Assembly (NCBI GenBank): GCA_009837725.1
Contig: VXSY01000273.1
Coordinates: 1 to 38,649, forward strand
Reading direction: 5' to 3'
From: Gammaproteobacteria bacterium
Lineage (GTDB): Bacteria > Pseudomonadota > Gammaproteobacteria > Pseudomonadales > Azotimanducaceae
DNA length: 38,649 nt
This document shows positions 1,751 to 31,164 of the stretch, one piece after another; position 1 is the stretch's first letter; the number at the start of each line of letters is the position of its first letter. The translations under genes and the position numbers were made by a program. The notes below the pieces were generated by a model that made no database searches, was not told where the DNA came from, and was given only the letters and a program-made list of their open reading frames with translations.

Positions 1751-1850
1751 GGCTAGCGGTTCGCGCGAGCGAACTGCTGGCCTTCGTGCTCGCGTTCGCT
1801 CGCACCTACGGCTAGGAGCCTGCGCCGTTTCTACGGCGCAGGCTCCTAGC
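1751..1850 (-). repeat. R1 structured repeat, copy A (reverse orientation)
   Basis: This is a dispersed element of about 100 bp. It includes a perfect 14-bp stem around a 4-base loop (arms 1814-1827 and 1832-1845 approximately) flanked by CTAG. That is followed, reading on the minus strand, by the conserved linker CGAGCACGAAGGCCAGCAG and the GCAGTTCGC/GCGAA stem. It is the best-paired copy of the first hairpin. It lies in the divergent spacer between the oxidase and the ferredoxin reductase genes. Confidence 0.8.
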
Positions 1851-1865
1851 GCATGAGGAAGGCCA

Positions 1866-1900
1866 CCCGAAGAAGGGCGACGCATGCGTCGCCCCTGTCC
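1866..1900 (+). repeat. R4 GC palindrome, copy 1
   Basis: A perfect 10+10 palindrome occupies 1875-1894 (GGGCGACGCA and its complement). It sits in a longer shared context, CACCCGAAGAA before and CTGTCC after. The same context and nearly the same palindrome recur at 3952-3986. It is adjacent to an R1 copy in both places. Confidence 0.6.
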
Positions 1901-1903
1901 GGC

Positions 1904-1931
1904 TTGGGCGCAGGAGCGGCGGCGATACAAT
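1904..1931 (+). promoter_or_regulatory. Candidate promoter of the ferredoxin reductase gene
   Basis: TTGGGC at 1904-1909 and TACAAT at 1926-1931 are separated by 16 bases, close to the sigma-70 spacing. The -10 candidate overlaps the ATG at 1930, so a transcript from here would not contain that ATG. This favours the in-frame TTG at 1966 as the real start. It rests on consensus matching by eye only. Confidence 0.35.
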
Positions 1932-1965
1932 GCGGATTGTTGTTGCGGCGAAGTGGGATGCAGGG

Positions 1966-3174
1966 TTGACCATCGTGATTGTCGGCGGCGGCCATGCTGC
2001 CGGTCAGGCGGCGGCGAGCCTCCGTCAGGGGGGGTACGACGAGGCCATCGTCGTGGTCGGCGACGAGCCGCATCTGCCGTATCAGCGCCCGCCGCTCTCC
2101 AAGGAGTACCTCGCTGGCGATCAGGGGCTCGAACGCGTCCATCTACGACCGCGGAAGTTCTATGCCGATCGCGACATCGAGGTGCGTTCGGGCGTGCGGG
2201 TATCGGCGATCGACCGTGCCCGGAACACGGTGATTTGCGACGACGACACGACGCTACCCTACGACCGGCTCCTGCTTGCCACGGGATCGCGTCCACGACG
2301 GCTGGACGTACCGGGGTGCGACCTTGCTGGCGTCTGCCTGCTCCGCACCATCGCCGATGCCGACTCGATCCGCGACAAGCTCAAGCCTGGCGCAAGGCTC
2401 GTCATTGTCGGCGGCGGCTACATCGGCCTCGAAGTGGCGTCCGTTGCGGTGCAGCACGGCTTGGACGTGACGGTGCTGGAAATGGAGGAGCGGATTCTGG
2501 CGCGGGTGACGACGCCGGCCATGTCGGCGTTCTACCATCGCCTGCACACCGGCAAGGGCGTCACCATCCGAACCGGTGCCCGGGCGGCCTCGTTCGCCGG
2601 CAACGGCCGACTTGCAGAGGTGCGATGCGACGACGGCACGTCGGTGCCAGCAGATTTGGCGGTCGTTGGCGTAGGCATCGTGCCCAATGTGGAACTAGCC
2701 GAAGAGGCCGGCCTCGCCTGCGACAACGGCATCGTCGTGGACGAGCGCGCCGGCACCGCCGACGAGCGCATCTACGCTGCCGGCGACTGCACCAACCACC
2801 CCAATCCGCTACTGGGCCGGCGCTTGCGCCTGGAATCCGTCCCCAATGCCATGGAGCAATCGCGGGTCGCCGCCGCGAACATGGCGGGGGGCGAGCGCAC
2901 CTATGCCAGCGTGCCGTGGTTCTGGTCGGATCAATACGACCTCAAGCTGCAAATGGTGGGCTTCTCCACGGACGCCGAACACGAAGTGGTGCGGGGCGAT
3001 CCCGACGAGGAGACGTTTGCCACCTTCCACTTTCGCGGCGACACGCTGATTGCCGCGGATGCGGTGAACCGGCCCCGCGAGTTCATGGTCGCGCGGCAGC
3101 TCGTGGGTCGAACGGTGGATGCTGCCCGGCTCGCGGACCCCGCAACCGATTTGAAGTCGCTGCTGTCGGGCTAG
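1966..3174 (+). CDS. FAD-dependent ferredoxin/rubredoxin reductase family protein
   Basis: This 402-residue pyridine nucleotide-disulfide oxidoreductase resembles the reductase components (ferredoxin, putidaredoxin or rubredoxin reductases) that pass electrons from NAD(P)H to a small redox protein, often for an oxygenase. Motifs run in the expected order: FAD-binding VGGGHAAG at residues 6-13, the family signature PYQRPPLSKEY near 38-48, NAD-binding IVGGGYIGLEVA near 147-158, and the second FAD motif YAAGDCT near 270-276, followed by the C-terminal domain. An ATG at 1930 would add 12 residues, but it overlaps a likely -10 box and the FAD motif fits best very near the N-terminus. No ferredoxin or oxygenase gene lies beside it in this window, so its electron acceptor is unknown. 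Confidence 0.88.
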   Translation: MTIVIVGGGHAAGQAAASLRQGGYDEAIVVVGDEPHLPYQRPPLSKEYLAGDQGLERVHLRPRKFYADRDIEVRSGVRVSAIDRARNTVICDDDTTLPYDRLLLATGSRPRRLDVPGCDLAGVCLLRTIADADSIRDKLKPGARLVIVGGGYIGLEVASVAVQHGLDVTVLEMEERILARVTTPAMSAFYHRLHTGKGVTIRTGARAASFAGNGRLAEVRCDDGTSVPADLAVVGVGIVPNVELAEEAGLACDNGIVVDERAGTADERIYAAGDCTNHPNPLLGRRLRLESVPNAMEQSRVAAANMAGGERTYASVPWFWSDQYDLKLQMVGFSTDAEHEVVRGDPDEETFATFHFRGDTLIAADAVNRPREFMVARQLVGRTVDAARLADPATDLKSLLSG

Positions 3175-3330
3175 CGTCCCGTGCCAGAAATGCGTTGCAT
3201 TTGACAAAGAACACTTGAAAGCACAGACCGGCCAAAGAAAAGGAGGATGTGCCGCCCAAATGGCGCAGGGAAGGCCGCTTTTGCACGAAGTCGGCCCCAA
3301 GCAAACGTCAGCATGTTCCTCGTGCGGCAC

Positions 3331-3449
3331 ACTAGGAGGCTGCGCCGTGGAAACGGCGCTGGCTCCTAGCCGTAGCTGCGAGCGGATGCGAGCACGAAGG
3401 CCAGCAGTTCGCGCCAGCGAACTGCCAACGCGCCCGCAAGGGCGCGCCA
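3331..3449 (+). repeat. R1 structured repeat, copy B
   Basis: This full-length R1 copy holds hairpin 1 (imperfect, flanked by CTAGGAG and CTCCTAG), the linker with CGAGCACGAAGGCCAGCAG, hairpin 2 (GCAGTTCGC/GCGAACTGC, loop GCCA) and hairpin 3 (GCGCCC GCAA GGGCGC). The preceding ATGTTCCTCGTGCG is shared with the DNA just before copy E at 7545. It ends 14 bases before the first possible start of the CULT gene. The rest of the 3175-3463 spacer holds no gene I can support. Confidence 0.8.
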
Positions 3450-3463
3450 GTGGGGTTAGGCGG

Positions 3464-3859
3464 ATGCGGGCGAGCGCCGATTCGGACGTCGCGGACGCCG
3501 CCGTCATGGACCCGAAGCTGAAGTCGATCCTGGAGGAAAACGAACGCGCCGACGAGGGCTACATCTTCTGCGCCGCCTGTTCGCATGTCATCGGTCACGT
3601 CAACGACCGCTTCGAGGTCAACGGCTCGTTCGAGCATCGGTTCGTCAATCCCTATGGCTTCGAGCACCACTTCGGCTGCCACCGCGAGGCGCACGGCTGC
3701 GCCATCGTCGGCGGCCCACAGGCCGCCGATAGCTGGTTTCCGGGCTTTCGCTGGCGCCTCGCCGACTGTGGCGGTTGCGGCGTTCACATGGGATGGCTGT
3801 TCGAGCGCGACGACGCCCATTTCTTCGGCTTGATCCTGCACCGCATCCAAACGGGCTAG
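3464..3859 (+). CDS. CULT-domain protein (bacterial cereblon-like)
   Basis: This small cytoplasmic protein is built almost entirely of one CULT domain, the thalidomide-binding fold of eukaryotic cereblon and of a few single-domain bacterial proteins such as the Magnetospirillum one. Numbering from the Met at 3506 (117 residues), the zinc ligands are C22 and C25 (CAAC) and C88 and C91 (CGGC). The aromatic cage is W77 and W83 in SWFPGFRW plus W97 in GWLF. Residue 99 is Phe, as in human cereblon. N39 to N48 lies in the EVNGSFEHRFVNP segment typical of the family. An in-frame ATG at 3464, with GGGG/AGG upstream, gives 131 residues and is used here; the 3506 start is a real alternative. The stop TAG lies in the CTAG that begins the next R1 repeat. 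The native ligand is unknown. By family knowledge it may bind C-terminal cyclic imides or related molecules. Confidence 0.88.
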   Translation: MRASADSDVADAAVMDPKLKSILEENERADEGYIFCAACSHVIGHVNDRFEVNGSFEHRFVNPYGFEHHFGCHREAHGCAIVGGPQAADSWFPGFRWRLADCGGCGVHMGWLFERDDAHFFGLILHRIQTG

Positions 3860-3943
3860 CCGTAGTTGCGAGCGAACGCGAGCACGAAGGCCAGCAGTTC
3901 GCGCTAGCGAACTGCCGACGCGCCCTTCAGGGCGCGCTAGCGC
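3855..3943 (+). repeat. R1 structured repeat, copy C (lacks hairpin 1)
   Basis: This copy starts at the GCTAG that contains the CULT gene stop codon. It has the CGAGCACGAAGGCCAGCAG linker, hairpin 2 (GCAGTTCGC/GCGAACTGC, loop GCTA) and hairpin 3 (GCGCCC TTCA GGGCGC), and ends in GCTAGC. The first hairpin seen in copies A, B and D is absent. Confidence 0.8.
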
Positions 3944-3951
3944 AATGGGGG

Positions 3952-3986
3952 CACCCGAAGAAGGGCGACGCAGCGTCGCCCTGTCC
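3952..3986 (+). repeat. R4 GC palindrome, copy 2
   Basis: The arms GGGCGACGC (3963-3971) and GCGTCGCCC (3973-3981) flank a single A, in the same CACCCGAAGAA...CTGTCC context as the copy at 1866-1900. It sits between R1 copies C and D. Confidence 0.6.
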
Positions 3987-4003
3987 ACAAGGTCCGACAG
4001 ACT

Positions 4004-4126
4004 GCTAGGAGGCGGCGCCGTAGAAAACGGCGCCGGCTCCTAGCCGTAGCTGCGAGCGAATGCGAGCACGAAGGCCAGCAGTTCGCGTAGCGAACTGCCG
4101 ACGCGCCCGCAAGGGCGCGCGCTAGC
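4004..4126 (+). repeat. R1 structured repeat, copy D
   Basis: This full-length copy is bounded by GCTAG at both ends. Hairpin 1 has 13 of 14 pairs (arms about 4008-4021 and 4027-4040). Hairpin 2 is GCAGTTCGC GTA GCGAACTGC and hairpin 3 is GCGCCC GCAA GGGCGC. Against copy A, one stem pair changes from T-A to G-C on both sides, which keeps the pairing. Together with copy C, R4 and R3 it fills most of the 473-bp spacer between the CULT and HAD genes. Confidence 0.82.
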
Positions 4127-4142
4127 GCTTGAGCAAGCACGG

Positions 4143-4178
4143 GCCTCTGGAGGGAAGGCATCCTGCCTTCCCTGCGCG
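4143..4178 (+). repeat. R3 hairpin repeat, copy 2 (TCC loop)
   Basis: A perfect 9-bp stem, GGGAAGGCA (4152-4160) and TGCCTTCCC (4164-4172), surrounds the loop TCC. It is preceded by CCTCTGGA and followed by TGCGCGC. The loop and flanks match the R3 copies at 509-551 and 29299-29335 while the stem bases differ. The remaining 4179-4319 shows no gene. Confidence 0.6.
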
Positions 4179-4319
4179 CACACTGGCGCGCTGACCGCTA
4201 CCTGCAACAGGAAAGTGCCTATTGTGGCGCTTGGGGAGTCGTTTCGTCTTTCGGGAATGTCCTGTTGGCGGGCCTGACGGAGCGTCATTGTCCACAAGCG
4301 TGCACGCAGCAACGTTGAG

Positions 4320-4332
4320 TAAAATCCCATCC
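4320..4332 (+). promoter_or_regulatory. -10-like box 7 nt before the HAD start (possible leaderless start)
   Basis: TAAAAT at 4320-4325 is followed by seven bases and then ATG at 4333. No Shine-Dalgarno sequence is visible, so transcription from this box would begin at or next to the start codon. No good -35 is visible at the standard distance. Confidence 0.35.
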
Positions 4333-5013
4333 ATGAGCCGCCCAAACCCGAACGACTACGACGTTCTCACCTTCGACTGCTACGGCACCCTGATCGACTG
4401 GGGTTCCGGGATGGTGGAGTTCCTGCAGCCGGTCCTGCTCGCCCATGACGCCCACGTGGTGGACGACTTCCTGCTCGAGTTCTTTGCCGACAAGGAACCG
4501 GGCGCGCAAAGGGATGGACGGCGGTATCGCGACGTGCTTGCGGACGTATTGACGCAGCTTGGCGAACGCCTTGCGTTCACGCCGTCGGAAGAAGCCCTCA
4601 CCGGCTTTGCCGACAGCGTGGGCGATTGGCCTGTGTTTGCCGATACGGTGGCTTCGCTGAAGCGTCTTGCGGAGCGGTTCGACTTGGTGGTGGTCTCCAA
4701 CGTGGACAACGAACTCTTCGCCCGCACCGCCAAGCGCCTTGAAGTCACGTTTCGACATGTCGTGACGGCGGAGGATGTGGGCGCCTACAAGCCAGACCGA
4801 CGCATGTTCGATGCGGCTCGAGAGGCGCTCGGTGATGCCCGCATCCTGCACGTCGCGCAGAGCCTCTTTCACGACATCGAGCCGGCCAGCGCGCAGGGCC
4901 TCGACACAGCGTGGATTCGACGCGAGCGTGAAGCGGCGCGACGGGTGGACGTTGCCCCGAACTGGCGTTACGAGTCGCTCGCCGAGTTCGCGGGAGACAT
5001 CCTGGGGGATTGA
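4333..5013 (+). CDS. HAD-superfamily hydrolase, haloacid dehalogenase type II-like
   Basis: This 226-residue cytoplasmic hydrolase belongs to the subgroup that holds L-2-haloacid dehalogenases and related phosphatases. The four HAD motifs are visible: the nucleophile D15 in FDCYGTL, S122-N123 in VVSNVDN, K153 in GAYKPD, and the acidic motif HDIEPA around D181. The HDI-PA form and the YGTL motif are characteristic of the type II dehalogenase-like group. A helical cap sits between motifs I and II, as expected. Whether it removes halide or phosphate cannot be decided by reading. The start at 4333 is chosen because the domain begins there and a -10-like box ends seven bases upstream. The ankyrin gene begins one base after the stop, so the two are probably co-transcribed. 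Confidence 0.85.
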   Translation: MSRPNPNDYDVLTFDCYGTLIDWGSGMVEFLQPVLLAHDAHVVDDFLLEFFADKEPGAQRDGRRYRDVLADVLTQLGERLAFTPSEEALTGFADSVGDWPVFADTVASLKRLAERFDLVVVSNVDNELFARTAKRLEVTFRHVVTAEDVGAYKPDRRMFDAAREALGDARILHVAQSLFHDIEPASAQGLDTAWIRREREAARRVDVAPNWRYESLAEFAGDILGD

Positions 5014-5014
5014 C

Positions 5015-7294
5015 ATGACCGGCGCCGCCATCGCGCCTACCGAGGCCCCGCTTTGCTTCGATGAGCTTGTCGACGCCGCCGAACGGCTTTGGCAGGCGGG
5101 GGAACGGCGGCGACCGAGTGCGCTTGCGCGGGCCAAGCGGGTCTTGCCGGGAGCGCTGTTCCGCGAAGTCGAGGCGAGGGGCATGGCCCGGGCCGACGCC
5201 GAGCAGGTGGTGGCGCGGGAGGCTGGGTTTCGGGATTGGCTGGAGCTTCAGGCAACGAGAGACCCTACCGGGCTCGACGACTCCGGGCGCGAACGAGCCA
5301 TCGTCGAAGCCGCCTTGGCAGGTGACGAGAGTGTGGTTTCGCGCCTTCTCGCCGATGCGCAAGACGTCGAACATTCGCTGCCGTGCGCCCTCGCACTCGC
5401 GTCGGACGATGCGTTGCGCCTCGTCACGGCAGCCAATGCCACGCGCCCAGCCGGTGCGCGGAACTGGCTGCCACTGCACTACGTCTGCTTCTCTCGCTTT
5501 GGCAATCGCGACGCGGTGGTTCGCGGTCGGCGGGTCGCCATCGCCGAGCGCTTGCTTGCGTTGGGTGCCGACCCCAACGTGGGCATGGTCGAGTCAGAGA
5601 CCGTGCGCGGCTTTCGCACCTGCTTGGGTGGTGCGGTCGGAAGGGCCCGCGACCCCGAACTCGCGCGGCGCTTGCTGTCTGCCGGGGCAAAGATCGACGA
5701 CGGGCCGACGCTGTACGAAGGCAGCGCCATGTGGGAAGCGGTGCGCTGCCCTGATGTCGAAAGCCTGCAACTGCTGGTCGAGCACGAACCGCCGTTCTGG
5801 CACATCTGCCACGCACTGCCGCAGGCGCTGCACTTCGCCGACGAGGTGGGCAACGCGATGGTGCGACTGTTGCTTGCGGCCGGTGCGGATCCAAACTGGA
5901 CCATGGGCAGCATGGGGTTCGACGGCAATTGCCTGCACGAGGCGATCATGTTGGGTCGCGATGTCGATCCGGTGCGGGCGCTGCTCGCGGCCGGCGCACA
6001 GGTGGATTTCCTGGATCGCGACGGTCGCATGCCGCTGCAGTTGGCGGTGGCGATGAACCGCTCGGACGCGGCGGCACTGCTGCGTGAGAGCGGGGCCGAC
6101 GAGGGCGCCGTTCGGGTCGCGGATCGGCTCGCGGCCGCCTGCTTCGCGGGGGATCAGGTCGCTGTGCGTCGCATCCTCAATGCGAGCGACGAGGTCGCCC
6201 GTGCCTTCAAGCCCACCGACCATATTTGGCTCGGGCGCGCTCTGCGCACCGGCAACGTCGAAGCCGCGCGACTGATGCTGGAGGCCGGCTTCGATGCCAA
6301 CGCGCACGATGACGACGGGCTGTACCCGCTGCACGTGGCCGCGGCCCGTGGCGACATCGAGGCGGTGGAATGCCTGCTCGGCGTAGATGGCTCCAAACGA
6401 CACGCGGACCTCGAAGCGACGGACTACGCCGCCGAGACACCCCTCGATCATGCGCTCAAGCTTGGTGACGAGAACGTGCGCGACCGCCTGGCGGAGCTCC
6501 TCGTCAACGACATCACCGACGAAATCCGACCCCGCAACGACGATCCCGCGTTCGCCGACCGGTTTGAGCAGGCCGCCGACGCCGTCGCGGCCGGGGATGC
6601 GGACGCGCTTGCGAGGATGCTGGCAGACTTGCCAGCGCTGGCAGAAGCGAGATCGTCCCGCGCCCATCGCTGCACCCTGCTCAACTATCTCGGTGCCAAC
6701 GGTTTTGAGCACGAACGCCAGAAGACACCACCGAACGCGGTGCAGATCATCGAGATTCTGCTCACCGCCGGCAGCGACCCCAACGCGTCGAGCTACGCCT
6801 ATCGCGGCGGCCCCGGCGCCAACACTGTGGCGTTGCTCACCAGCAGCAGCCATCCGCAGCACGCCGGCCTGACGATCCCGATGGTGGCGGCTTTGGCGCG
6901 AGGCGGCGCCAAGGTCGGTGCGGAATTCGAACTCCTGTGTGCGCTGCACGAGGCCGATCGAGAGCAACGCCTAGGCGACGCCCTCAGCCAGATCGACGCC
7001 GCAGCGCCGGCAACGGCGGAAGCCTTGGTACAGGCCGCGGCCACCAACGAGCGAATGCTCCTGGTCGCCCTGCTCGACGCCGGGGTGGACATCAACGCTC
7101 CCGCCACGCAAAACATGCGCGCCTTGCACCAAGCTGCCTTCTACGGCCACGAGGAGTTGGTGGACATGCTGCTGGCGCGTGGTGCCGATCCAAGCCTCAC
7201 CGAAGACCTCTACAACGGCACCGCAGCCGGCTGGGCCCGGGCCGGGGAACACGAAGCGCTCTACGAACGCCTCTTGAAGCTCTCGGCCCCCTGA
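5015..7294 (+). CDS. Large ankyrin-repeat protein
   Basis: This 759-residue protein has no signal peptide or membrane segment and is made mostly of ankyrin repeats, which mediate protein-protein binding. Repeat units are clear by eye, for example ERLLALGADPNVG, VRLLLAAGADPNW, VRALLAAGAQVDFLDRDGRMPLQLAV, ARLMLEAGFDANAHDDDGLYPLHVA, and near the C-terminus MRALHQAAFYGHEELVDMLLARGADPS. The first roughly 100 residues are helical, non-repeat sequence with a WLEL segment. The start is ATG at 5015, one base after the HAD stop, so translation is likely coupled. No secretion signal is visible. Its partner is unknown. Ankyrin proteins are common in host-associated bacteria, but nothing here proves such a role. 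Confidence 0.85.
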   Translation: MTGAAIAPTEAPLCFDELVDAAERLWQAGERRRPSALARAKRVLPGALFREVEARGMARADAEQVVAREAGFRDWLELQATRDPTGLDDSGRERAIVEAALAGDESVVSRLLADAQDVEHSLPCALALASDDALRLVTAANATRPAGARNWLPLHYVCFSRFGNRDAVVRGRRVAIAERLLALGADPNVGMVESETVRGFRTCLGGAVGRARDPELARRLLSAGAKIDDGPTLYEGSAMWEAVRCPDVESLQLLVEHEPPFWHICHALPQALHFADEVGNAMVRLLLAAGADPNWTMGSMGFDGNCLHEAIMLGRDVDPVRALLAAGAQVDFLDRDGRMPLQLAVAMNRSDAAALLRESGADEGAVRVADRLAAACFAGDQVAVRRILNASDEVARAFKPTDHIWLGRALRTGNVEAARLMLEAGFDANAHDDDGLYPLHVAAARGDIEAVECLLGVDGSKRHADLEATDYAAETPLDHALKLGDENVRDRLAELLVNDITDEIRPRNDDPAFADRFEQAADAVAAGDADALARMLADLPALAEARSSRAHRCTLLNYLGANGFEHERQKTPPNAVQIIEILLTAGSDPNASSYAYRGGPGANTVALLTSSSHPQHAGLTIPMVAALARGGAKVGAEFELLCALHEADREQRLGDALSQIDAAAPATAEALVQAAATNERMLLVALLDAGVDINAPATQNMRALHQAAFYGHEELVDMLLARGADPSLTEDLYNGTAAGWARAGEHEALYERLLKLSAP

Positions 7295-7319
7295 AGGCCG
7301 CCCAACGTTTCAAGGAATA

Positions 7320-7360
7320 GACCTATTAACACGTTGATTTAAAAAAATAAATCATCTCTA
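7320..7360 (+). other. AT-rich patch with perfect inverted repeat
   Basis: Immediately after the ankyrin gene is a very AT-rich stretch in otherwise GC-rich DNA. It includes the inverted repeat TGATTTA (7335-7341), six A residues, then TAAATCA (7348-7354). It could be a weak terminator, an operator or an A-tract structure. No function can be assigned from sequence. Confidence 0.4.
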
Positions 7361-7370
7361 GGGCCGAGTT

Positions 7371-7500
7371 CACACCAACGAACCGGCCGGATGGCGCCGT
7401 GTGAAGCTACTCGAAGCCAGGGCCCATCACGCTCCTCGCGCCGAAGGCGAAGCAACCAAGGCTCCAAACATGCAACCAGCCCCCTCCCCGCGAGACGGGC
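7371..7500 (+). repeat. R2 dispersed repeat, copy 1
   Basis: This element of about 130 bp begins CACACCAACG and contains CCGGCCGGATGGCGC, then GGGCCCATCACGCTCCTCG, GCCGAAGGCGAAG, CAACCAAGG and GCAACCAGCC, and ends GAGACGGGCC. The same order of blocks occurs at 26146-26279 in this orientation and at 12189-12320 in reverse. No start codon or coding frame common to all copies stands out. Confidence 0.75.
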
Positions 7501-7544
7501 CCGACGGGTGGCGGGGAACGCTGCCATGTTCCTTGTGCGTCAGC

Positions 7545-7630
7545 GGCTCCTAGCCGGAGGGTGAGCGGATGCGAACCCGTAGGCCAGCAGTTGCGAAGCA
7601 ACTGCCGACGCGCTCGCAGAGCGCGCTAGG
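7545..7630 (+). repeat. R1 structured repeat, copy E
   Basis: This copy starts at GGCTCCTAGCC, the 3' arm of hairpin 1 only. It has a diverged linker, hairpin 2 as GCAGTTGC GAA GCAACTGC and hairpin 3 as GCGCTC GCA GAGCGC, and ends in repeated CTAG. Both stems differ from copies B-D but pair perfectly. It abuts the 3' end of the convergent phosphotransferase gene. Confidence 0.75.
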
Positions 7631-7636
7631 CTAGGG

Positions 7637-8746: not shown

Positions 8747-8853
8747 GAGTTATCTCCTTGCCCGACGCGACGCGTGGCTTCATAGTCGCGGGGGCCGTCC
8801 GCTCGCATGGCAGGGCGGCAACTCGAGCAATGGGGATGTTAGGAAGGAGGTAC

Positions 8854-12188: not shown

Positions 12189-12320
12189 GGCGTCTCGCGG
12201 GGAGGAGGCTGGTTACACCTTCGGGCCCTTGGTTGCTTCGCCTTCGGCGCGAGGAGCGTGATGGGCCCTCGCTCCGAAGGCAAGTCGGGACCGCGCCATC
12301 CGGCCGCCACATTGGTGTTG
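12189..12320 (-). repeat. R2 dispersed repeat, copy 3 (reverse orientation)
   Basis: Read on the minus strand this carries the R2 blocks in order: CAACACCAA, GGCCGGATGGCGCGGTCCC, GGAGCGAGGGCCCATCACG, CTCCTCGCGCCGAAGGCGAAG, CAACCAAGG, AACCAGCC and GCGAGACG. A GGAGCG/CGCTCC stem spans the centre here and in copy 2. It fills the spacer between the DUF3667-like and DUF7009-type genes. Confidence 0.75.
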
Positions 12321-12401
12321 ACTCGGCGTCAAGTCCATTCGTGGCCAATCAACGTGTTGCGGAATCTGTTTCCTGCAAAGAGGTTGGGCGGCGCCGGCAG
12401 G

Positions 12402-21974: not shown

Positions 21975-22457
21975 ATGCAAATCGCACTCCGGTTCTGCGC
22001 TGGCGCAGCCAGCCTGCTGCTTGTGGCAGGTTGTGTTGTCCATTACGAACCGCCGCCGACGCCCCTCGAGCTGCAAGCGCTGCAATCGCGCGACTACGAC
22101 GAAGACAAGCAGGTCGCCTTCGGCAGCGTGATGAGTGTGTTCCAGGACCTCGGCTACACCCCCACCAGCGCCGACCTCGAAACCGGCTTCATCACCGCCG
22201 AGAGCGTGGCAACGGGCAACTTCGACTGGATTGCCGTGCTCACCGACACGAGCAGCACGGTGCAGACGCGGGCCACCGCCTATATTGAGGAAGTCGGCGA
22301 GGCGGTGCGCGTGCGGCTCAGCTTCGTGGAGGTGCGAAGCACGTCGTCCGAGCAGGGCCAGGCCGGCAGGAGCGACAGGGCGCTGCTCGATCCCGCCTTG
22401 TACGCGAATGCGTTCGAGCGCATTGAACAGGCCATCTTCGTCCGCTCCAGCGAGTAG
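21975..22457 (+). CDS. Small lipoprotein of unknown function
   Basis: This 160-residue protein has a signal peptide and the lipobox VAGC (Cys20), followed by a proline-rich linker (YEPPPTPLELQAL). The mature domain starts with QSRDYDEDKQVAFGSVMSVFQDLGYTPTSADLETGFITAES, a pattern seen in several small periplasm-facing lipoproteins of Gram-negative bacteria in which a strand-helix unit is followed by beta strands. I do not know its function. AAGGGGAG lies about six bases before the ATG at 21975. It is the last plus-strand gene of the M3 peptidase/lipoprotein group and is convergent with the ABC permease, leaving a 47-bp spacer. Confidence 0.75.
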   Translation: MQIALRFCAGAASLLLVAGCVVHYEPPPTPLELQALQSRDYDEDKQVAFGSVMSVFQDLGYTPTSADLETGFITAESVATGNFDWIAVLTDTSSTVQTRATAYIEEVGEAVRVRLSFVEVRSTSSEQGQAGRSDRALLDPALYANAFERIEQAIFVRSSE

Positions 22458-22504
22458 CTGCGGTGCGCCTATCGCGGCGCGCAAGGCGGATGCGTGCGTC
22501 GTCC

Positions 22505-23458: not shown

Positions 23459-23481
23459 CGTCCCACTCCCAGGACACCGCC

Positions 23482-25047: not shown

Positions 25048-25068
25048 GTCCTGAACGTAAGCGACCGA

Positions 25069-26094
25069 TCAATGTATCGTGGCGGTTGGTTCCTCGGCGG
25101 GCAGGTCGTTGGCGGTGACGACGGCAATGGGGGTTTCTCGATCGGTGAGCGCCACCTGACCGCCGATCATGTCGAGCGCGAGTTCGATCCCGTTCACTGC
25201 GAACTGATCGCCGTATTGCTCCACCGTCGCCGCGATGCGGCCATCCCGCAGCAGCGGATGCACGGCGGAGATGTTGTCGAAGCCGACCACCGTCACGTCG
25301 TGGTCGAGTCCGGCGAACGCCACCGCCGAGGCCGCACCCAAGGCCATGTTGTCGTTGGCCGCGAGGATCACGTGCGTTTCGGGGTGCGCCACGAGAACGG
25401 CGGCGGTGACTTCGGCGGCCTTGGTCTGATCCCATGCCGCGCTTTGCTTCGCGACCAGGTTTGCGCCGGTGGCAGCAATCGCGTCCTCGAAGCCGCGCCG
25501 GCGCTCGATGGCATTGTGGGCACTGGTGACGCCCTCGAGGATGACCACGTTCGCGCGGTCGGCAAGTCCGCCGAGCACGAACTCGGCAACGTCGCGGGCG
25601 CCCTTGCGGTTGTCGGGGCCGATGAAGGGGATCGCGAGGTCGTATTCGGCCAGCACCTCGGCATCGAGGCGATTGTCGATGTTGACCACCTGTATGCCGG
25701 CGGCGCGGGCGCGCGCGAGCACCGGCACGAGCGCCTTGGAGTCGGCCGGAGCGATGACGATGGCATCGACGCCAAGTCCCATCATCTGCTCCACCAGGGC
25801 CACCTGGGCGGCGAGGTCGCTCTCGTTCTTGATGCCGTTGACGATGAGGTCGTAGCGACCCTCGTGCTGGTCTTGGTGCGTCTGCGCGGCATCCGCCATG
25901 GTGACGAAGAACTCGTTGGCGAGGGATTTCATCACCAGCGCGATGGTGGGCTTCGCGTGGGTGTCGTGGTCGCCGCTATCGCCTTCCGGGCTGCACGCGG
26001 TACTGCCGAAAAGCGCCAGCACTACAGCACAGATGCTGAGTCGCATCCTTGGGAACAAGCGTCCCAGAGTTACACCACACACGTAGCACGACAT
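25069..26094 (-). CDS. Periplasmic sugar-binding lipoprotein of the ABC importer (RbsB-like)
   Basis: This 341-residue solute-binding protein belongs to the ribose-binding/LacI-like fold. The N-terminus has a hydrophobic segment ending in the lipobox STAC (Cys34 from the 26094 start), so it is likely a membrane-anchored lipoprotein rather than free in the periplasm. The mature protein starts PTIALVMKSLANEFFVTM and continues with AAQVALVEQMMGLGVDAIVIAPAD, ILAANDNMALGAASAV and VVGFDNISAVHPLLRDGRIAATVEQ, all typical of RbsB. The ATG at 26094 has GGGGGA five bases upstream. A Met at 26046 just before the hydrophobic segment has weaker support. It is first in the importer operon and lies 229 bp downstream of the ADP-ribosylglycohydrolase-family gene. 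Confidence 0.9.
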   Translation of the reverse strand: MSCYVCGVTLGRLFPRMRLSICAVVLALFGSTACSPEGDSGDHDTHAKPTIALVMKSLANEFFVTMADAAQTHQDQHEGRYDLIVNGIKNESDLAAQVALVEQMMGLGVDAIVIAPADSKALVPVLARARAAGIQVVNIDNRLDAEVLAEYDLAIPFIGPDNRKGARDVAEFVLGGLADRANVVILEGVTSAHNAIERRRGFEDAIAATGANLVAKQSAAWDQTKAAEVTAAVLVAHPETHVILAANDNMALGAASAVAFAGLDHDVTVVGFDNISAVHPLLRDGRIAATVEQYGDQFAVNGIELALDMIGGQVALTDRETPIAVVTANDLPAEEPTATIH

Positions 26095-26145
26095 TGGATT
26101 CCCCCAGCAACGAGTCAGAAAGGTGAATGTGCATCGAAGCCGAGC

Positions 26146-26279
26146 CAACACCAACGTGCCGGCCGGATGGCGCGGTCCCCAAGGCCGCTCGGAGCGAGGG
26201 CCCGTCACGCTCCTCGCGCCGAAGGCGAAGAAACCAAGGGCGAGGGCGTGCAACCAGCCTTCTCCCCCCAGACGGGCCA
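26146..26279 (+). repeat. R2 dispersed repeat, copy 2
   Basis: The blocks run in the same order as at 7371-7500: CAACACCAACG, CCGGCCGGATGGCGC, GGAGCGAGGGCCCGTCACG, CTCCTCGCGCCGAAGGCGAAG, AAACCAAGG, GCAACCAGCC and CAGACGGGCC. It sits between the ADP-ribosylglycohydrolase-family gene and the importer operon, which are both on the minus strand, so it would lie in any message joining them. Confidence 0.75.
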
Positions 26280-26323
26280 CGGCACACTGCACAATAGCGC
26301 GCAGTCGGAGATTCCCAAGGAGC

Positions 26324-27646
26324 CTACGGGGTGGCCTCCGGAATTATCCATGCTTCGGCCTGAACTTCGCCTCCCATCTCCTCGACAACGACCCGATCGA
26401 CGATGCCAACCCCCGTCGCCGCCATGTTGGTGAAATCATCCACGCCGTTCGGCGTCGGAAAACCGGTGCGGGTTCGATGGATGTTGTAGCGCTCCGAGAA
26501 CTTCTGCCCGAACATCTCCTCGATGCCCGCCTTGCCGGCCATGAAGCCAAGCAGCCCGCCCCAAGTGGCCGCCGGATTGTCGGAATCCCAGCCGGCCAGC
26601 ACCGCGATTTTCACCGTCTCCTGGTAGTCGCCCTCCCCGTAGAGCAAGCTGACGATGCTGGCGGCGAAGTTGATGCCGGAGGCGAAGCAGGCGTTGCAGA
26701 AGATCTCGCGCGAGGTCATGTCGTAGCCATCCTGCTGCTCGACCTGATAGCGCTGAAACACCTCGTCGCGGGCCTGCTCCCACGGCACGTCGGCGTCGTA
26801 GCGGCTCTTCACGAAGTCGTACATCTTCGCCGTGGTGGATTCATCCGGCAGCAGCGAGCGCGCTTCGGCAGCCATCGCATGCACCTGCTCCTTGGCGGGT
26901 TGGCCGGCATCGATGCCGGCGGCGAGGGCGTGCATGATGACGTAGAAGTCCGACGCCAGCTTCGCCTCGCCACTCGCGGTGGTGCGGATCGGCAGGTGCG
27001 CCATCTCTAGCGCGATGTCGGGTCGTCCTGGCGCGAACAAGCCGAAAATCTCGGTGGTGAGCTGCGCGTCGATCATTTCGCTCAGTTCGTTGTTGGCAGG
27101 ATCGCTGGTCGCCGGCGGCACGATGCCTTCGTGCATCAGGTCGTGTGCGCGCTGGTTGGAGACCCAGAGGAAGTTCTCGCCGCCGCCCCTGCCGTCGCTG
27201 AGCGGGGAGTTGTTTTCGTCGAAGATGTGCGTCAGCCAGCCGTCGCGTATCTGCTCCCCGGTGAGCCGGCTGGTCTCGTGCTGCGCGAGCAGATGCTGGT
27301 ACATGTACTCGATGTCGGTGTCGTCGTCGGCGCCCCAAATCTGGTTGGGTGCCCGCCGCACCCAATCGATGTTGCGCGACAGATCAGGTCGCCGGAAACC
27401 AAAGAAACTCGGCTGATCCTCCTTGCCCCAATCGTCCCGCGTATAGAAGACGAGCTGCTCCCCCTCTCCCACGCCAATCTTGTCCATCTCCGTGACGATG
27501 CCCGTCCAGTTCGCGAGGCACTGACCGAGCCAGAAGCCCTGCAGCTTCTCCGCATAGTCCGCCCGAGAAACCGTCAGCTCCCCCGCGCCGGCACCCATCG
27601 CCAAAACCAGCGCCGCCATGGCCATGGCACGAAAAAGCCCTCGCAT
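26324..27646 (-). CDS. Secreted ADP-ribosylglycohydrolase-family protein
   Basis: This 440-residue protein has a Sec-type signal peptide (MRGLFRAMAMAALVLAMGAGAG) and so acts outside the cytoplasm. The family hydrolyses ADP-ribose or N-glycosidic bonds using a metal pair held by aspartates. Visible motifs are GFWLGQCLANWTG near 37-49, ADDDTD (106-111) and the C-terminal WDSDN...TWGGLLGFMAGKAG (353-374). The WGADDDTDIEYMYQHLL form is the sub-type often annotated simply as ADP-ribosylglycohydrolase family. The ATG at 27646 is chosen because AAGGA lies eight bases upstream and the signal peptide starts there. The sugar importer genes lie downstream on the same strand, which suggests that it releases a sugar or nucleoside for uptake. 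That link is inference. Confidence 0.84.
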   Translation of the reverse strand: MRGLFRAMAMAALVLAMGAGAGELTVSRADYAEKLQGFWLGQCLANWTGIVTEMDKIGVGEGEQLVFYTRDDWGKEDQPSFFGFRRPDLSRNIDWVRRAPNQIWGADDDTDIEYMYQHLLAQHETSRLTGEQIRDGWLTHIFDENNSPLSDGRGGGENFLWVSNQRAHDLMHEGIVPPATSDPANNELSEMIDAQLTTEIFGLFAPGRPDIALEMAHLPIRTTASGEAKLASDFYVIMHALAAGIDAGQPAKEQVHAMAAEARSLLPDESTTAKMYDFVKSRYDADVPWEQARDEVFQRYQVEQQDGYDMTSREIFCNACFASGINFAASIVSLLYGEGDYQETVKIAVLAGWDSDNPAATWGGLLGFMAGKAGIEEMFGQKFSERYNIHRTRTGFPTPNGVDDFTNMAATGVGIVDRVVVEEMGGEVQAEAWIIPEATP

Positions 27647-27741
27647 GTTCTGCATTCCTTCTGGCCCTTGTAAGGGAGACTGGCAAGTATCACCCACCGC
27701 CTCGACATCCGGCAACGCGGTCGCCCCGTAGCGGCGGGAGT

Positions 27742-29190
27742 TCAGCCGCCGGCGGCCTCGCGTTCGGTGCGCAAGTCCAGGATGCGTTGCGCGAGTCTTG
27801 CGCGGAGGCGGTCGTCGTCGCCGACCAGGCGGGAGGCGTACTCGAGGTGGCGGACGGCGCCGTTGTAGTCGCCATGGAGGGCGAAGAACTCGGCGCGGGC
27901 GCGGTAGATGCCGACGGTGCTGCCGGCGAGCACTTCGGTTTCGGCGAGGAGATACCAGATGTCCGAGTCTTGCGGCCGCTTCTGGGCGTGGCGCCAGAGC
28001 ACGCGGCTGGCTTCGTCGTGGTCGCCCTTGGCGCTGAGGGCGCGGGCGTGGAGCATGGTTAGGGGGTCGTTGTCGGGGTTGAGATAGAGCTGGCTGTCGA
28101 GCACGTCCAGGGCTTCCTGTGGGCGACCGCCTTCGATCAGCACCTCTGCCAGGGAGGCGGTGGTGAGGATGCTGTCCGGGCGCTGTCCGCGCAGCACCTG
28201 CATGGTGTCGGCGGCTTCGTCGTACTCGCCGTCGCCGGCGAGGGCCACCGCCAGCTCGTAGATGCCGGCTAGGCGCCGCACCGAGCCGGGCTCGCCCTCC
28301 TTGGCGCGGGCGCGGGCGGCAACCACGGCTTGCTTCGGTGTGTCGGCGTAATGCACGCGCACCCGCGCACGCATGAACTGATAGTCGGCGGAGGGTTCGT
28401 ATTCGCCCTTCGACATGCGCGAGGCTTGATCGCGGGCGTCAGAGATGCGCGACTCGGTCAGCGGGTGGGTGAGCAGGAACTCGGGCGGGCGCTGGCTCAT
28501 CGTGTGGCGGAAGGCGCGCTGCATCCGCTCGAACATGCGTGACACGCCTCTTGGATCGTACCCGGCTTCCACCAGGATGTTGAGACCAATGCGGTCTGCC
28601 TCCTGTTCGCGGGTGCGGCTGTAGCGCAGCATGGAGTCCTGGGCGAGGGCCTGGCTGCCCTGCATGGTCGCCATGGCCGCATCGGCGTCGCCGCCGGCGG
28701 CGATGATGGCGACGGAGGCCAGCACTCCCGCCAGCACAGAGAGCGACATGCCCTGCATCTTCTCCACTTGGCGCGCGAAGTGGCGCTGGCTCAGGTGGGC
28801 GAGCTCGTGCGCCACTACCGACGAGTACTCGTGCACGTCCTCTGCGTAAAGATAGAGGCCAAGATTGATGCCGATGATGCCGCCGGGCACTGCGAAGGCG
28901 TTGATTTCCGGGCTGTCCACCAGCACGGGATAAAGCACAGTCTCGTTCAGGTCCGCGTACTGCGCGAGGCCGCGGATGTTGACCTGCGTGAAGTACTTCA
29001 GCAGTGGGTCGTCCGAGGTCGGCACCTGGGCACGGATTTGCCGCAGCGCTTGCTGACCGAGGGCCCGCTCTGCCTCCGGCGAGACGATTGCGGAGGAGGC
29101 ATCGCCAAGCTCGGGCAACTCGTTGGTATGCGCGCCAGCGCCGCCCGCTAAGAGCACGAGTGCAGCAACCGCTGTGTGCATGAGACGCAT
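27742..29190 (-). CDS. bepA: M48-family periplasmic metalloprotease with TPR domain (BepA-like)
   Basis: This 482-residue protein has a signal peptide (MRLMHTAVAALVLLAGGAGAH) and a zinc metalloprotease domain with HELAHLSQRH (128-137) and the downstream glutamate in REQEADRIG (about 196). The C-terminal half is helical with TPR-like units (YDEAADTMQVL, PQEALDVLDSQLYLNPDNDP). This is the plan of BepA/YfgC, which assists outer-membrane protein assembly and degrades stalled LptD or BamA, and the length matches E. coli BepA. The start at 29190 is chosen because TATGAT lies seven bases upstream on the minus strand; ATGs at 29202, 29199 and 29181 are alternatives and no Shine-Dalgarno site is visible. 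It is divergent from the tusA-like gene. Confidence 0.88.
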   Translation of the reverse strand: MRLMHTAVAALVLLAGGAGAHTNELPELGDASSAIVSPEAERALGQQALRQIRAQVPTSDDPLLKYFTQVNIRGLAQYADLNETVLYPVLVDSPEINAFAVPGGIIGINLGLYLYAEDVHEYSSVVAHELAHLSQRHFARQVEKMQGMSLSVLAGVLASVAIIAAGGDADAAMATMQGSQALAQDSMLRYSRTREQEADRIGLNILVEAGYDPRGVSRMFERMQRAFRHTMSQRPPEFLLTHPLTESRISDARDQASRMSKGEYEPSADYQFMRARVRVHYADTPKQAVVAARARAKEGEPGSVRRLAGIYELAVALAGDGEYDEAADTMQVLRGQRPDSILTTASLAEVLIEGGRPQEALDVLDSQLYLNPDNDPLTMLHARALSAKGDHDEASRVLWRHAQKRPQDSDIWYLLAETEVLAGSTVGIYRARAEFFALHGDYNGAVRHLEYASRLVGDDDRLRARLAQRILDLRTEREAAGG

Positions 29191-29203
29191 GGACGGCATC
29201 ATA
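29191..29203 (-). promoter_or_regulatory. -10-like box 7 nt before the bepA start
   Basis: On the minus strand TATGAT (29203-29198) is followed by seven bases and ATG at 29190. It is one mismatch from the sigma-70 consensus. No ribosome-binding site is seen, which suggests a leaderless message. The same layout is seen on the plus strand before the tusA-like gene. Confidence 0.35.
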
Positions 29204-29232
29204 GCCGCAGCCCGCGCGCCCTGACGGGCGTT

Positions 29233-29427
29233 CCAGACAGCGCCAACAAAGCGCCGGCCCCGACAACGCCACCAAACCAGCCCCTGCCATGCGAGGGCCT
29301 CTCTGGACGGAGGGCGTCCCGCCCTCCAAGCGTGCCGAAGGCGCGCACGCAGCGGGGCCGGCCAAGGCCACCGTCACCCACGTCCCAGACAACGCCACCA
29401 AAGCGCCGGCCCCGAACACGCCATCAA
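29233..29427 (+). repeat. Direct repeat pair flanking an R3 hairpin
   Basis: A unit of about 43 bp at 29233-29274 recurs with a few changes at 29385-29427. Both begin CCAGACA and contain AAAGCGCCGGCCCCGA and ACGCCA. The divergent bepA/tusA-like spacer is therefore largely repeat material. A CGCCCTGACGGGCG hairpin at 29217-29230, like R1 hairpin 3, lies just before the first unit. Confidence 0.6.
29299..29335 (+). repeat. R3 hairpin repeat, copy 3 (TCC loop)
   Basis: A perfect 8-bp stem, GGAGGGCG (29309-29316) and CGCCCTCC (29320-29327), surrounds the loop TCC. It is preceded by CCTCTCTGGAC and followed by AAGCGTGCC. The loop and flanks match the copies at 509-551 and 4143-4178, but the stem bases are different on both sides. 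Confidence 0.6.
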
Positions 29428-29445
29428 CAAATGGCACCTCGGTGC

Positions 29446-29457
29446 GATAATCCGCGC
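29446..29457 (+). promoter_or_regulatory. Candidate promoter immediately before the tusA-like gene
   Basis: GATAAT at 29446-29451 is six bases before the ATG at 29458, and a TCAACA hexamer 16 bases upstream of it is a fair -35. No Shine-Dalgarno sequence is present, so the transcript is probably leaderless. Confidence 0.4.
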
Positions 29458-29718
29458 ATGGCTGCCCACAACCAAAGCGACAACCCCGTGTTTCTCGATG
29501 CCACGGGACTGCGCTGCCCCATGCCCCTGCTCAAGGCAAAGAAGGCGCTGAACGAGATGGAGCCGGGCGTGCGCTTGCGCGTGGTGGCGACGGACCCCGG
29601 TTCCGTGCGCGACTTTGCCGTTTTCTCCGAACAGAGCGGCCATGCGCTGCTCGAATCCGAGGAGCAGGACGGCCGCTACACGTATCTCTTGGAGAAGCGC
29701 GCCCGCCCGCGCGGGTAG
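29458..29718 (+). CDS. TusA/SirA-family sulfur-carrier protein
   Basis: This 86-residue cytoplasmic protein belongs to the TusA family of small sulfur-transfer proteins, which carry persulfide sulfur to targets such as tRNA thiolation or molybdenum-cofactor enzymes. The family motif LRCPMPLLKAKKAL puts the active cysteine at C20, followed by VVATDPGSVRDFAVFSEQSGHALLESEE. It resembles the TusA-like protein that accompanies bepA in Pseudomonas, rather than necessarily TusA itself. The PerM-like gene begins five bases after its stop, so they form an operon. The start is ATG at 29458, and there is no leader to hold a ribosome site if the upstream -10 box is used. Confidence 0.88.
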   Translation: MAAHNQSDNPVFLDATGLRCPMPLLKAKKALNEMEPGVRLRVVATDPGSVRDFAVFSEQSGHALLESEEQDGRYTYLLEKRARPRG

Positions 29719-29723
29719 CAGTC

Positions 29724-30845
29724 GTGCGCTTCGTCGAGATCATCGGCGGGTGGGTCAACCGCCACTTCTCCAACGAAGAGGCGATCTTCTTGGTCGCCCT
29801 GATCGTCGCGGTGACGCTGGTGGTGCTCACGCTAGGTACCGTGCTTGCGCCGGTGCTGGCTGGGCTCGTGTTTGCGTTCCTCCTGCAGGGGCTCGTGAAG
29901 CGCCTTGAAAACTGGCATGTGCCGCGCATCGTCGCGGTGAGTTTCGCGGTGTTTCTGCTTGTCGGTGCCTTGGTACTGCTTTGTGTTGGTGTGCTGCCCT
30001 TGGTGTGGCGGCAGCTCGAAGAGTTCGTGGCGGCGTCGCCGGACTTCATCGCCGAGGTGGGCTCTGCGCTCGCGGAGTTGCCCGAGCGCTATCCGACGAT
30101 GTTCCCGCAGGAACGGGTGAGCGGCTGGATCGACACCATGAGCAATCAGGTGGCGAACCTCGGCACGACGGTGCTGCAAGCGCTGGTGGCGCAGGTGTCG
30201 AACGTCTTTCAGATGCTCATTTTTTTGGTGCTTGCGCCCATCTCGGTGTTCTTCTTCCTGAAGGATAGCGATCGCTTGATGGCCGCTTTGGAGCGAGCGC
30301 TGCCGCCGCAGCGACGGCTGCTTACCCGCGTCGGCCGCGAGATGAACGCCCAGATCGCCAACTACGTGCGCGGCAAGGTGGTGGAGATCGTCATCGTGGG
30401 CCTCGCTTCGTACATCACCTTTGTGCTCTTGGGCCTCAACTACGCTGCCTTGCTCGGAGTGGTGGTGGGCCTATCCGTGCTCGTGCCATTCGTTGGTGCC
30501 GCAGTGGTGACCGTGCCGGTGGCCGCCGTGGGACTGTTGCAGCACGGCTGGTCCATCGAACTCGCCTACGTGATGGGTGCCTATGCCGTCATCCAAGCCA
30601 TCGACGGCAACGTGCTGGTGCCGCTGCTCTTCTCCGAGGCGGTAAACCTGCACCCCATCGCCATCATCGTCGCTGTCCTCGCCTTCGGCGGCATCTGGGG
30701 CTTCTGGGGCGTCTTCTTCGCCATCCCGCTCGCGACCCTCATCAAGGCGGTGTACAACGCCTGGCCGAGCAAGGTCGAGGAAGAGGGCGAGCAAGCGGAA
30801 GCCGAGGAACCGCTCCCATCCGCCGACCCGCCGGGGCCCAGCTAG
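29724..30845 (+). CDS. AI-2E family transporter (PerM-like permease)
   Basis: This 373-residue inner-membrane protein belongs to the AI-2E/PerM family. It has an N-terminal hydrophobic pair (AIFLVALIVAVTLVVLTLGTVLAPVLAGLVFAFLL, IVAVSFAVFLLVGALVLLCVGVLPLV), a helical soluble loop, and then the family blocks NVFQMLIFLVLAPISVFFFLKD, NYVRGKVVEIVIVGLASYITFVLLGLNYAALLGVVVGLSVLVPFVGAAVV, and ALIQAIDGNVLVPLLFSEAVNLHPI with the acidic tail typical of the group. Members export autoinducer-2 or exchange ions; the substrate here is unknown. The start is GTG at 29724, five bases after the tusA-like stop. The ribosome site is weak, so coupling to tusA translation is likely. Confidence 0.88.
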   Translation: MRFVEIIGGWVNRHFSNEEAIFLVALIVAVTLVVLTLGTVLAPVLAGLVFAFLLQGLVKRLENWHVPRIVAVSFAVFLLVGALVLLCVGVLPLVWRQLEEFVAASPDFIAEVGSALAELPERYPTMFPQERVSGWIDTMSNQVANLGTTVLQALVAQVSNVFQMLIFLVLAPISVFFFLKDSDRLMAALERALPPQRRLLTRVGREMNAQIANYVRGKVVEIVIVGLASYITFVLLGLNYAALLGVVVGLSVLVPFVGAAVVTVPVAAVGLLQHGWSIELAYVMGAYAVIQAIDGNVLVPLLFSEAVNLHPIAIIVAVLAFGGIWGFWGVFFAIPLATLIKAVYNAWPSKVEEEGEQAEAEEPLPSADPPGPS

Positions 30846-30851
30846 CTTTCT

Positions 30852-30870
30852 CGGGTGGCCGTCCCACCCG
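30852..30870 (+). other. Hairpin after the PerM-like gene
   Basis: CGGGTGG and CCACCCG form a perfect 7-bp stem around a 5-base loop just after the stop codon at 30843-30845. No T-run follows, so it is not a standard intrinsic terminator. It could stabilise the 3' end of the message. Confidence 0.4.
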
Positions 30871-30984
30871 TCCGCCAGAAGACTGACGGTTGTTGAAGGG
30901 GCCTCGGCGTCGCGCGGGGAAAACCCACCTGCGAGCCGCTCGGACCGTTGGGCTTGCCATACGAAGTCGCGTTCGCTCCGCTGT

Positions 30985-31056
30985 CCCGCCCTGACGGGCG
31001 CGTTGGCGGTTCGCTGGCGCGAAAACTGCTGAGGTCTCGTCGCATTCGGGGGCACG
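30985..31056 (-). repeat. R1 structured repeat, copy G (reverse, diverged)
   Basis: Read on the minus strand this gives a diverged linker, CAGCAGTTTTCGCGCCAGCG (hairpin 2, imperfect), and a hairpin 3 of CGCCC TGA CGGGCG type. It is arranged head to head with copy F at 31083-31164. Confidence 0.55.
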
Positions 31057-31082
31057 CCCACGCGGTTTCCACGACGCAGCCT

Positions 31083-31164
31083 GCTAGCCGTAGCTGCGAG
31101 CGAACGCGAGCACGAAGGCCAGCAGTTGCGAAGCAACTGCCGACGCGCTCGTAGAGCGCGCTAG
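31083..31164 (+). repeat. R1 structured repeat, copy F
   Basis: The copy is bounded by GCTAG. It has the linker CGAGCACGAAGGCCAGCAG, hairpin 2 as GCAGTTGC GAA GCAACTGC and hairpin 3 as GCGCTC GTA GAGCGC. The HEAT-protein reading frame on the minus strand runs through it and stops in its boundary CTAG. Confidence 0.78.

Follow-up and report, generated by a model that had tools for sequence, protein, structure and literature searches.

The stretch of DNA analysed here, referred to as the window, comprises the 38,649 nucleotides of contig VXSY01000273.1 (positions 1 to 38,649, forward strand) from a gammaproteobacterium of the Azotimanducaceae (GenBank assembly GCA_009837725.1; genome G000). It carries seven copies of a dispersed, hairpin-forming element, R1. 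An earlier note, made from the letters of the window, had suggested that R1 could be a mobile element resembling repetitive extragenic palindromes (REPs) or miniature inverted-repeat transposable elements (MITEs), or a structured RNA. The first reading is the best supported: R1 is probably one lineage's composite form of a genus-restricted group of mobile palindromes.

R1 copies in the window

A covariance model was built on an alignment of 55 copies and used on the window, on aligned gaps and on relatives. All seven stretches proposed as copies of one element matched it, with 32.5–111.7 bits (Table 1). The copies at 3368, 3858, 4042 and 31086 are in the model alignment and match by construction; those at 7552, 1738 and 30982 are not. 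The 19-mer CGAGCACGAAGGCCAGCAG, reported as common to the copies, is exact in five of the seven, but it has 3 mismatches in copy E (7572–7590) and was not found at ≤3 mismatches in copy F (30985–31056). The shuffled window sequence gave no match to it. Likewise, the "two or three hairpins" of the earlier description apply in part, as hairpin H1 is complete only in copies A, B and D, and copy E keeps its last bases. Single-stranded DNA folding of six copies yielded z-scores of −1.95 to −8.01.

Table 1. Copies of R1 in the window and the hairpins of copy B
Feature	Position	Strand	Parts	Covariance-model match
R1 copy A	1738..1850	-	perfect H1, core, degraded H2, without H3; amid divergent genes	1738–1813 (-), 61.1 bits; independent of model alignment
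R1 copy B	3331..3449	+	H1, core, H2, H3; TTCGC/GCCC type	3368–3449 (+), 108.3 bits
R1 copy C	3855..3943	+	core, H2, H3	3858–3939 (+), 111.7 bits
R1 copy D	4004..4126	+	H1, core, H2, H3	4042–4122 (+), 105.9 bits
R1 copy E	7545..7630	+	H1 remnant, diverged core, H2 GCAGTTGC/GCAACTGC, H3 GCTC/GAGC; gamma subfamily	7552–7628 (+), 69.4 bits; independent of model alignment
R1 copy F	30982..31067	-	strongly diverged	32.5 bits, E 3.5e-07; independent of model alignment
R1 copy G	31083..31164	+	core, H2 and H3 of gamma type	31086–31163 (+), 90.9 bits
Hairpin H2 of copy B	3404..3425	+	GCAGTTCGC/GCGAACTGC; from DNA fold and genus-wide arm test	
Hairpin H3 of copy B	3429..3446	+	CGCGCCC/GGGCGCG; part common to the genus	

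Anatomy and subfamilies of R1

Part-by-part parsing gave 64 copies with all parts, or 55 once near-duplicates were removed. On the core strand the order is an optional upstream hairpin, a 40-nt core, H2 and H3. The upstream hairpin is either H1 (CTAGGAGG...CTCCTAG) or the alternative H1′ (CTAGCAGCCTGTCGG...). The core begins AGCCGTAG in 39 of the 55 copies, CT precedes its AG in 39/55, and H1 opens with CTAG in 21 of 25 (hand count). A GTAG sits within the core, ∼28 nt 5′ of H2, in 43/55 copies, and the borders of H2 and H3 are mostly CCA and AACG/GACG.

Three subfamilies were distinguished as tendencies: one combines H1′, GAACG and a TTCA loop; another combines H1, GAATG and an H3 starting AACG; and the gamma subfamily combines H2 GCAGTTGC with H3 GCGCTC/GAGCGC. 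The links between parts are incomplete, and mixed copies occur. The aligned copies at loci L001 and L114 share core, H2 and H3 and have unlike upstream hairpins. The differences noted earlier between copies in H3 (GCGCCC/GGGCGC vs. GCGCTC/GAGCGC) and in H2 (TTCGC vs. TTGC) are real, but they are mostly linked, forming one subfamily mark with a few mixed copies.

R1 is abundant in a three-genome clade

The description of R1 as a dispersed element was borne out by searches of the whole genome and its relatives, which yielded at least 149 model matches in G000, at least 151 in G010 and at least 150 in G005, at the limit of 150 candidates scored; these counts take in H2–H3 units without core and weak matches. 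With the core alone at ≤2 mismatches, 70 (G000), 59 (G005) and 39 (G010) matches were obtained. The other 13 of the 16 congeneric genomes had 0–2 core matches, which is chance level, as the reversed-pattern control gave 0–2 per strand. The genomes are mostly fragmented, with contig breaks frequent at repeats.

Of 54 core stretches in named genomes, 46 came from two Gammaproteobacteria bacterium metagenome-assembled genomes (MAGs), IRC4_bin_23 and SB0662_bin_60, which from their names we take to be Ircinia sponge MAGs. Single core matches in eight other genomes were attributed to chance: four lacked a model match (E ≤ 0.01), and among the remaining four the highest score was 22.4 bits. Neither copy B nor the 20-mer matched anything in the phage, plasmid and viral collections. 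Among the papers listed in literature searches on REPs and RAYT transposases, double-hairpin repeats and sponge-symbiont repeats, no title or abstract opening names these repeats.

Copies are present and absent at aligned sites

The core was not present in the G005 intervals aligned to copies A, B, C, D, E and G, nor in the G010 intervals aligned to A, B and G, the other copies being unaligned in G010. The G005 gaps facing A, B, C, D and G and the G010 gaps facing A and B had no model match. At the copy B site the G005 gap is almost closed, at GGCTAGC, and G005 lacks the whole stretch of ∼290 bp that contains copies F and G. The G005 gap facing copy E holds two related units, one on the opposite strand (49.3 bits) and one on the same strand (29.8 bits).

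A tally for the queried regions gave 12 copies in G000 that were comparable with G005. Three are shared by core (L191:9049, L191:17287 and L198:8317), six face gaps without a model match (A, B, C, D, G and L188:17552), and three face related units in opposite orientation with 49–55 bits (E, L198:12767 and L191:16420). Two G005 copies, L117:5883 and L211:2488, are absent from G000. At 4 of the 11 loci displayed for core in both genomes, the copies are near-identical inside 98–100% identical flanks, indicating that some copies are inherited.

Several side observations concern the same alignments. In G005, a related unit in opposite orientation lies at L179 6651–6839, L211 12239–12318 and L202 9026–9080, where G000 has an R1 copy, through either inversion or separate arrival. 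In the comparison of L117 (5750–6150) with L002, an R1 copy lies in a short, strongly differing island whose flanks are 99% identical to G000. Loci L002, L023, L030 and L035 are 98–100% identical to IRC4_bin_23 loci, and others, including the window, 87–95%; this identity mosaic relative to the sister MAG results from recombination or binning. Contig C174 of G005 has 38,649 bases, the same as the window, and the stretches of it that were compared match contig C178 of G000, not the window.

Genomic context

Gene context was assessed with home-made, approximate gene calls over 283 kb of G000, in which 28 of 30 core matches were kept. Outside predicted genes lay 26 of the 28 copies (9 between divergent, 8 between convergent and 8 between tandem genes, and 1 at a contig end), and 2 lay within genes. 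The bases available in gaps of ≥60 were 11,888 divergent, 8,252 convergent and 14,147 tandem. The copies are thus not enriched downstream of genes, which argues against a terminator or 3′-end RNA role.

The first TAG of copy C is the stop codon of the gene upstream, and several other copies supply such a stop in the same way. Insertion at stop codons is not proposed: among 24 copies without an upstream hairpin, 8 are open in the frame concerned vs. 4 and 4 in the other two, with three rows representing one locus. A HEAT-repeat open reading frame (window 31084–31728) enters copy G, from which it takes its final codons and its stop, and its frame near the end is unlike that of the G005 relative.

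The tetranucleotide CTAG is rare in the G000 sample (244 found vs. 896 expected from base composition). Among intergenic CTAGs, 29/105 lie ≤8 nt from the listed modules, which make up 1.4% of the sequence.

Other repeats occur in the same DNA. Three further hairpin families in the 283 kb, GGAGGGAAGGCATTCTGCCTTCCCTCC, GGAGGGCGGGACGCCCTCC and GGGCGACGCATGCGTCGCC, have 17, 15 and 9 both-strand matches, in which near-palindromes may count twice. A second repeat family of ∼140–180 bp (window 7363–7545, 12191–12330 and 26136–26267) has many matches in G000, G005 and G010. A third repeat of ∼200 bp (29229–29432) has many matches in G005 and is missing at the aligned G005 site.

A double hairpin is shared across the genus

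Weak model matches were obtained in six other congeners. Judged by eye, 26 of the 30 loci shown are H2–H3 units, and in many of these the H2 arms are different. The H3 pattern was detected in 15 of the 16 congeners, with 155, 174 and 120 matches in the R1 clade and 3–84 in the twelve others; G015 is the only congener without it. Outside the genus, 1 of 42 genomes of the same family and order had a single match (reversed control, 0–1 per strand). Among the genomes searched, the family is restricted to the genus.

To analyze H2, we took 65 sites chosen by H3 alone, so that selection does not favour pairing, and set the limit for an H2 hairpin at a score of ≥7. The sites were the 1–3 first-listed per genome, with 13 from G009, 25 from G000 and one from outside the genus (G030); the G000 sites picked by hand were selected so as to exclude known R1 core copies. 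An adjacent H2 hairpin was found on the 5′ side of H3 at 34/65 sites, on the 3′ side at 2/61 and in letter-shuffled flanks at 0/65. The 34 H2 hairpins pair with their own arms; over 5,000 arm shuffles the corresponding number averaged 4.1 and never exceeded 11. They comprise 18 arm pairs, or 16 with two nested ones merged (hand count), and seven merged pairs occur in G000 alone. Two arm pairs have a mismatch, one of them being a GC-rich hairpin unlike the others. A tandem array of 9.5 H2–H3 units of 50 bp, with 98% matches, is present in G013 (L315, 435–906).

Since the H2 arm variants pair with their own partners, renewal of H2 involves changes in both arms, and H3 hardly changes. The proposal that paired changes are a sign of selection on structure therefore holds at the level of subfamilies, as H2 arms differ across the genus and each pairs with its own partner.

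Stem changes within the R1 clade are mostly uncompensated

Stem changes at 16 pairs were counted in 106 of 122 copies, with 16 copies under the alignment-score limit left out. Copies aligned between sister genomes were counted separately unless >97% alike; the statistics treat copies as independent, and many share descent. One-sided changes left 62 cells unpaired and 27 as wobble pairs. Two-sided changes gave 17 paired and 2 unpaired cells, in addition to 38 gap cells, and 15 of the 17 are the gamma change at H3 pair 6. By hand count, transitions comprised 27 wobble-keeping vs. 18 pair-breaking changes, so that a preference is not clear. Copy by copy, the paired changes that had been proposed do not hold: pair-breaking changes (62) outnumber two-sided paired ones (17), 15 of these being one subfamily mark.

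In 51 distinct rows, chosen by a parser that requires near-consensus H2 and H3, 98.9% of cells are paired and one pair has two-sided changes (6 cells). The covariation score (0.030) and the 6 two-sided cells were both above all 500 shuffles, and all these cells stem from the single subfamily pair. The number of pairs changed on both sides (1) was not above the shuffles (271/500 as high), and a partner slide of −3 yielded an equal covariation score.

In H1, 5 pairs changed on both sides, against a shuffled mean of 2.4 (2/500 as high), a modest excess, and two positions were unpaired in 19/23 and 17/23 distinct rows. The T-A to G-C change described in H1 is real (copies at 1751 and 4004), but its position is the one unpaired in 17/23 rows. 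Degradation was also seen at aligned loci: at L012, L024 and L036, H2 bases are lost in one of two genomes, and at L038 and its partner both genomes show degradation. An outer stem formed by complementary flanks (L002, L084 and L006) was rejected, as a comparison of up to 55 copies with shuffled partners, under many settings, gave a lowest p of 0.055; the L006 flanks, taken alone, pair across 11 bases.

These data show that (i) covariation separates subfamilies of R1; and (ii) it is not borne out for individual copies.

A RAYT gene as candidate mobiliser

No transposase was found among the 9 window proteins scanned, in line with the earlier note, but the genome has one RAYT gene elsewhere. With the RAYT model NF047646 (cut-off 80), a single G000 gene scored above the cut-off, at about 90 bits (89.6–90.5) over a 225-aa reading; it lies outside the window, between or beside acyl-CoA carboxylase-like genes (named by eye from translations and DNA). 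Over the 16 congeners, the cut-off was passed only by G000 (90.5 bits), G005 (89.6 bits) and G010 (90.6 bits). The R1 core is not beside the RAYT gene in any of the three. Among 30 loci of RAYT-model matches, many of them weak, the H3 pattern was clearly near the match in one, L164 (near 1852; G003), where an H3 hairpin lies ∼60 bp from a RAYT-model match containing a stop codon.

E. coli TnpA-REP is reported to cut at CT 5′ or 3′ of the REP (PMC8266576). The CT before the R1 core in 39/55 copies fits such cleavage and is suggestive only. The correlation between the RAYT gene and R1, seen over three genomes, is thin, and the gene is a candidate mobiliser.

Origin and spread of R1

The high copy number, intergenic location, restriction to a lineage and presence or absence at aligned sister sites argue for a REP-like or MITE-like mobile element. 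We consider it probable that R1 is a lineage-specific composite form within a genus-restricted family of non-autonomous mobile palindromes of the REP-like kind; their structure would matter during mobility and decay once they are in place. The genus-wide unit is a double hairpin, in which H2, with subfamily-specific paired arms, is followed by a near-invariant H3. In the three genomes of the R1 clade, a core lies on the 5′ side of this unit, often together with an upstream hairpin, which is H1 or H1′. Source copies would need to fold to be mobilised, so that new subfamilies arise with both arms changed; in copies landed between genes pairing would no longer be kept, and they would decay. We infer that pairing is selected through mobility. 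The units may move as folded single strands, cut in trans by an HUH (Y1) enzyme of the RAYT kind, with modules joined at CT|AG. This enzyme step is somewhat less likely than not, a congener without R1 missing the RAYT cut-off narrowly.

Several observations weigh against the REP-like reading or its enzyme. Neither H2 nor H3 is bordered by a GTAG or CGTC tag. At 31/65 H3 sites there is no H2 hairpin above the limit, some having a degraded H2 and others unrelated sequence. Neither a clean target duplication nor an exact empty site was seen at the aligned sites, and in most aligned gaps the difference extends beyond the element. As for the enzyme, the next best matches to NF047646 are in G004 (78.8 bits) and G011 (73), and 13 of the 16 congeners match at E ≤ 0.001; with G004 so near the cut-off, the split in RAYT matches between the R1 genomes and the other congeners is thin. 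The three R1 genomes may owe both RAYT gene and repeat to shared descent. Congeners G013 (28 H3 sites) and G001 (35) have no RAYT match at E ≤ 0.001, and the hairpins on the upstream side of the RAYT gene are of another kind, the GGAGGGCGGGACGCCC type.

Alternatively, replication or repair could generate the palindromes and maintain their symmetry, through template switching or through gene conversion between arms or copies; neither a transposase nor selection on folding would then be involved. The coexistence of perfect and imperfect H1 arms, the unlike upstream hairpins of the aligned copies L001 and L114, tandem arrays such as that of 9.5 × 50-bp units in G013, and the three aligned gaps with related units oppositely oriented between two genomes are all in its favour. 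Alone, however, it leaves unaccounted for both the dispersal of the repeats to well over 100 separate sites and the constancy of H3 beside a diversifying H2, and we regard it as unlikely.

Less likely still is a MITE of the classical type, mobilised by a DDE transposase that duplicates its CTAG target. CTAG duplication is the target habit of IS5-like elements, and the joining of R1 modules at CTAG, rare in the G000 sample and concentrated near modules, would agree with it. However, sites without the element bear no clean CTAG duplication, terminal flank pairing is not beyond chance (lowest p 0.055), and no full-length parent element was seen, DDE families not having been searched for.

Despite the strong folding of the six copies as DNA and the stop codon that copy C provides, a structured RNA acting in place as an mRNA stabiliser, terminator or regulator is very improbable, given no enrichment 3′ of genes (28 copies), mostly uncompensated stem changes, copies missing at aligned sites where the genes remain, and no Rfam match in the window at gathering score.

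Comparison with known systems

Most REPs are sorted by GTAG or CGTC tags (PMC3733652). Like R1, these REPs (Di Nocera et al. 2013, PMC3733652) are short palindromes found between genes at high copy number; complementary changes in the stem set their subfamilies apart, and several families per genome are possible. R1 differs in combining two or three unlike hairpins whose order is fixed, and in having no tag beside H2 or H3.

In REPINs, compensatory changes across the hairpin are reported to be common, and single REPs are described as defunct remnants (PMC3116915). A REPIN resembles R1 as a multi-part, hairpin-forming mobile unit, but it consists of two inverted copies of one REP (PMC3116915), whereas H2 and H3 of R1 are unrelated hairpins in tandem. 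The R1 data separate two senses of covariation that tend to be conflated: paired changes mark subfamilies, and single copies lose pairing in place.

RAYTs flanked by unrelated terminal inverted repeats (TIRs) have been described (PMC3733652), and in the RAYT-flanking TIRs or TIRtrons, TIR families, some of them self-complementary, also reach moderate copy number (PMC3733652, PMC6006769). As in TIRtrons, the RAYT gene of G000 is adjoined by hairpins unlike the other repeats; unlike in TIRtrons, R1 is not beside it. The likeness to IS200/IS605 elements lies in a single-strand mechanism and hairpin recognition by a Y1 enzyme (PMC6006769, PMC8266576), both of which are proposed for R1; in contrast to them, R1 carries no gene.

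CGTC repeats apparently have no dedicated transposase (PMC3733652). With its constant H3 and variable H2, the unit in 15 related genomes provides a natural series on what a hairpin-recognising mobiliser reads. The series also bears on the means by which REP-like families spread when no transposase is dedicated to them, which is an open question for the CGTC repeats (PMC3733652). It is conceivable, though we would not expect it, that the units form a third, untagged REP-like class. In such a class, H3 would serve as the conserved handle and specificity would lie in H2, a hairpin renewed rapidly, with every subfamily fitted to its own altered mobilising enzyme. R1 would then have arisen by capture of a core and a third hairpin through CT|AG joining.

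In sum, R1 shares with REPs its short, high-copy palindromic form and its extragenic position (26/28 copies), and has neither their unpaired end tag nor a RAYT gene flanked by the same repeat. It resembles REPs yet departs from them in these two respects.

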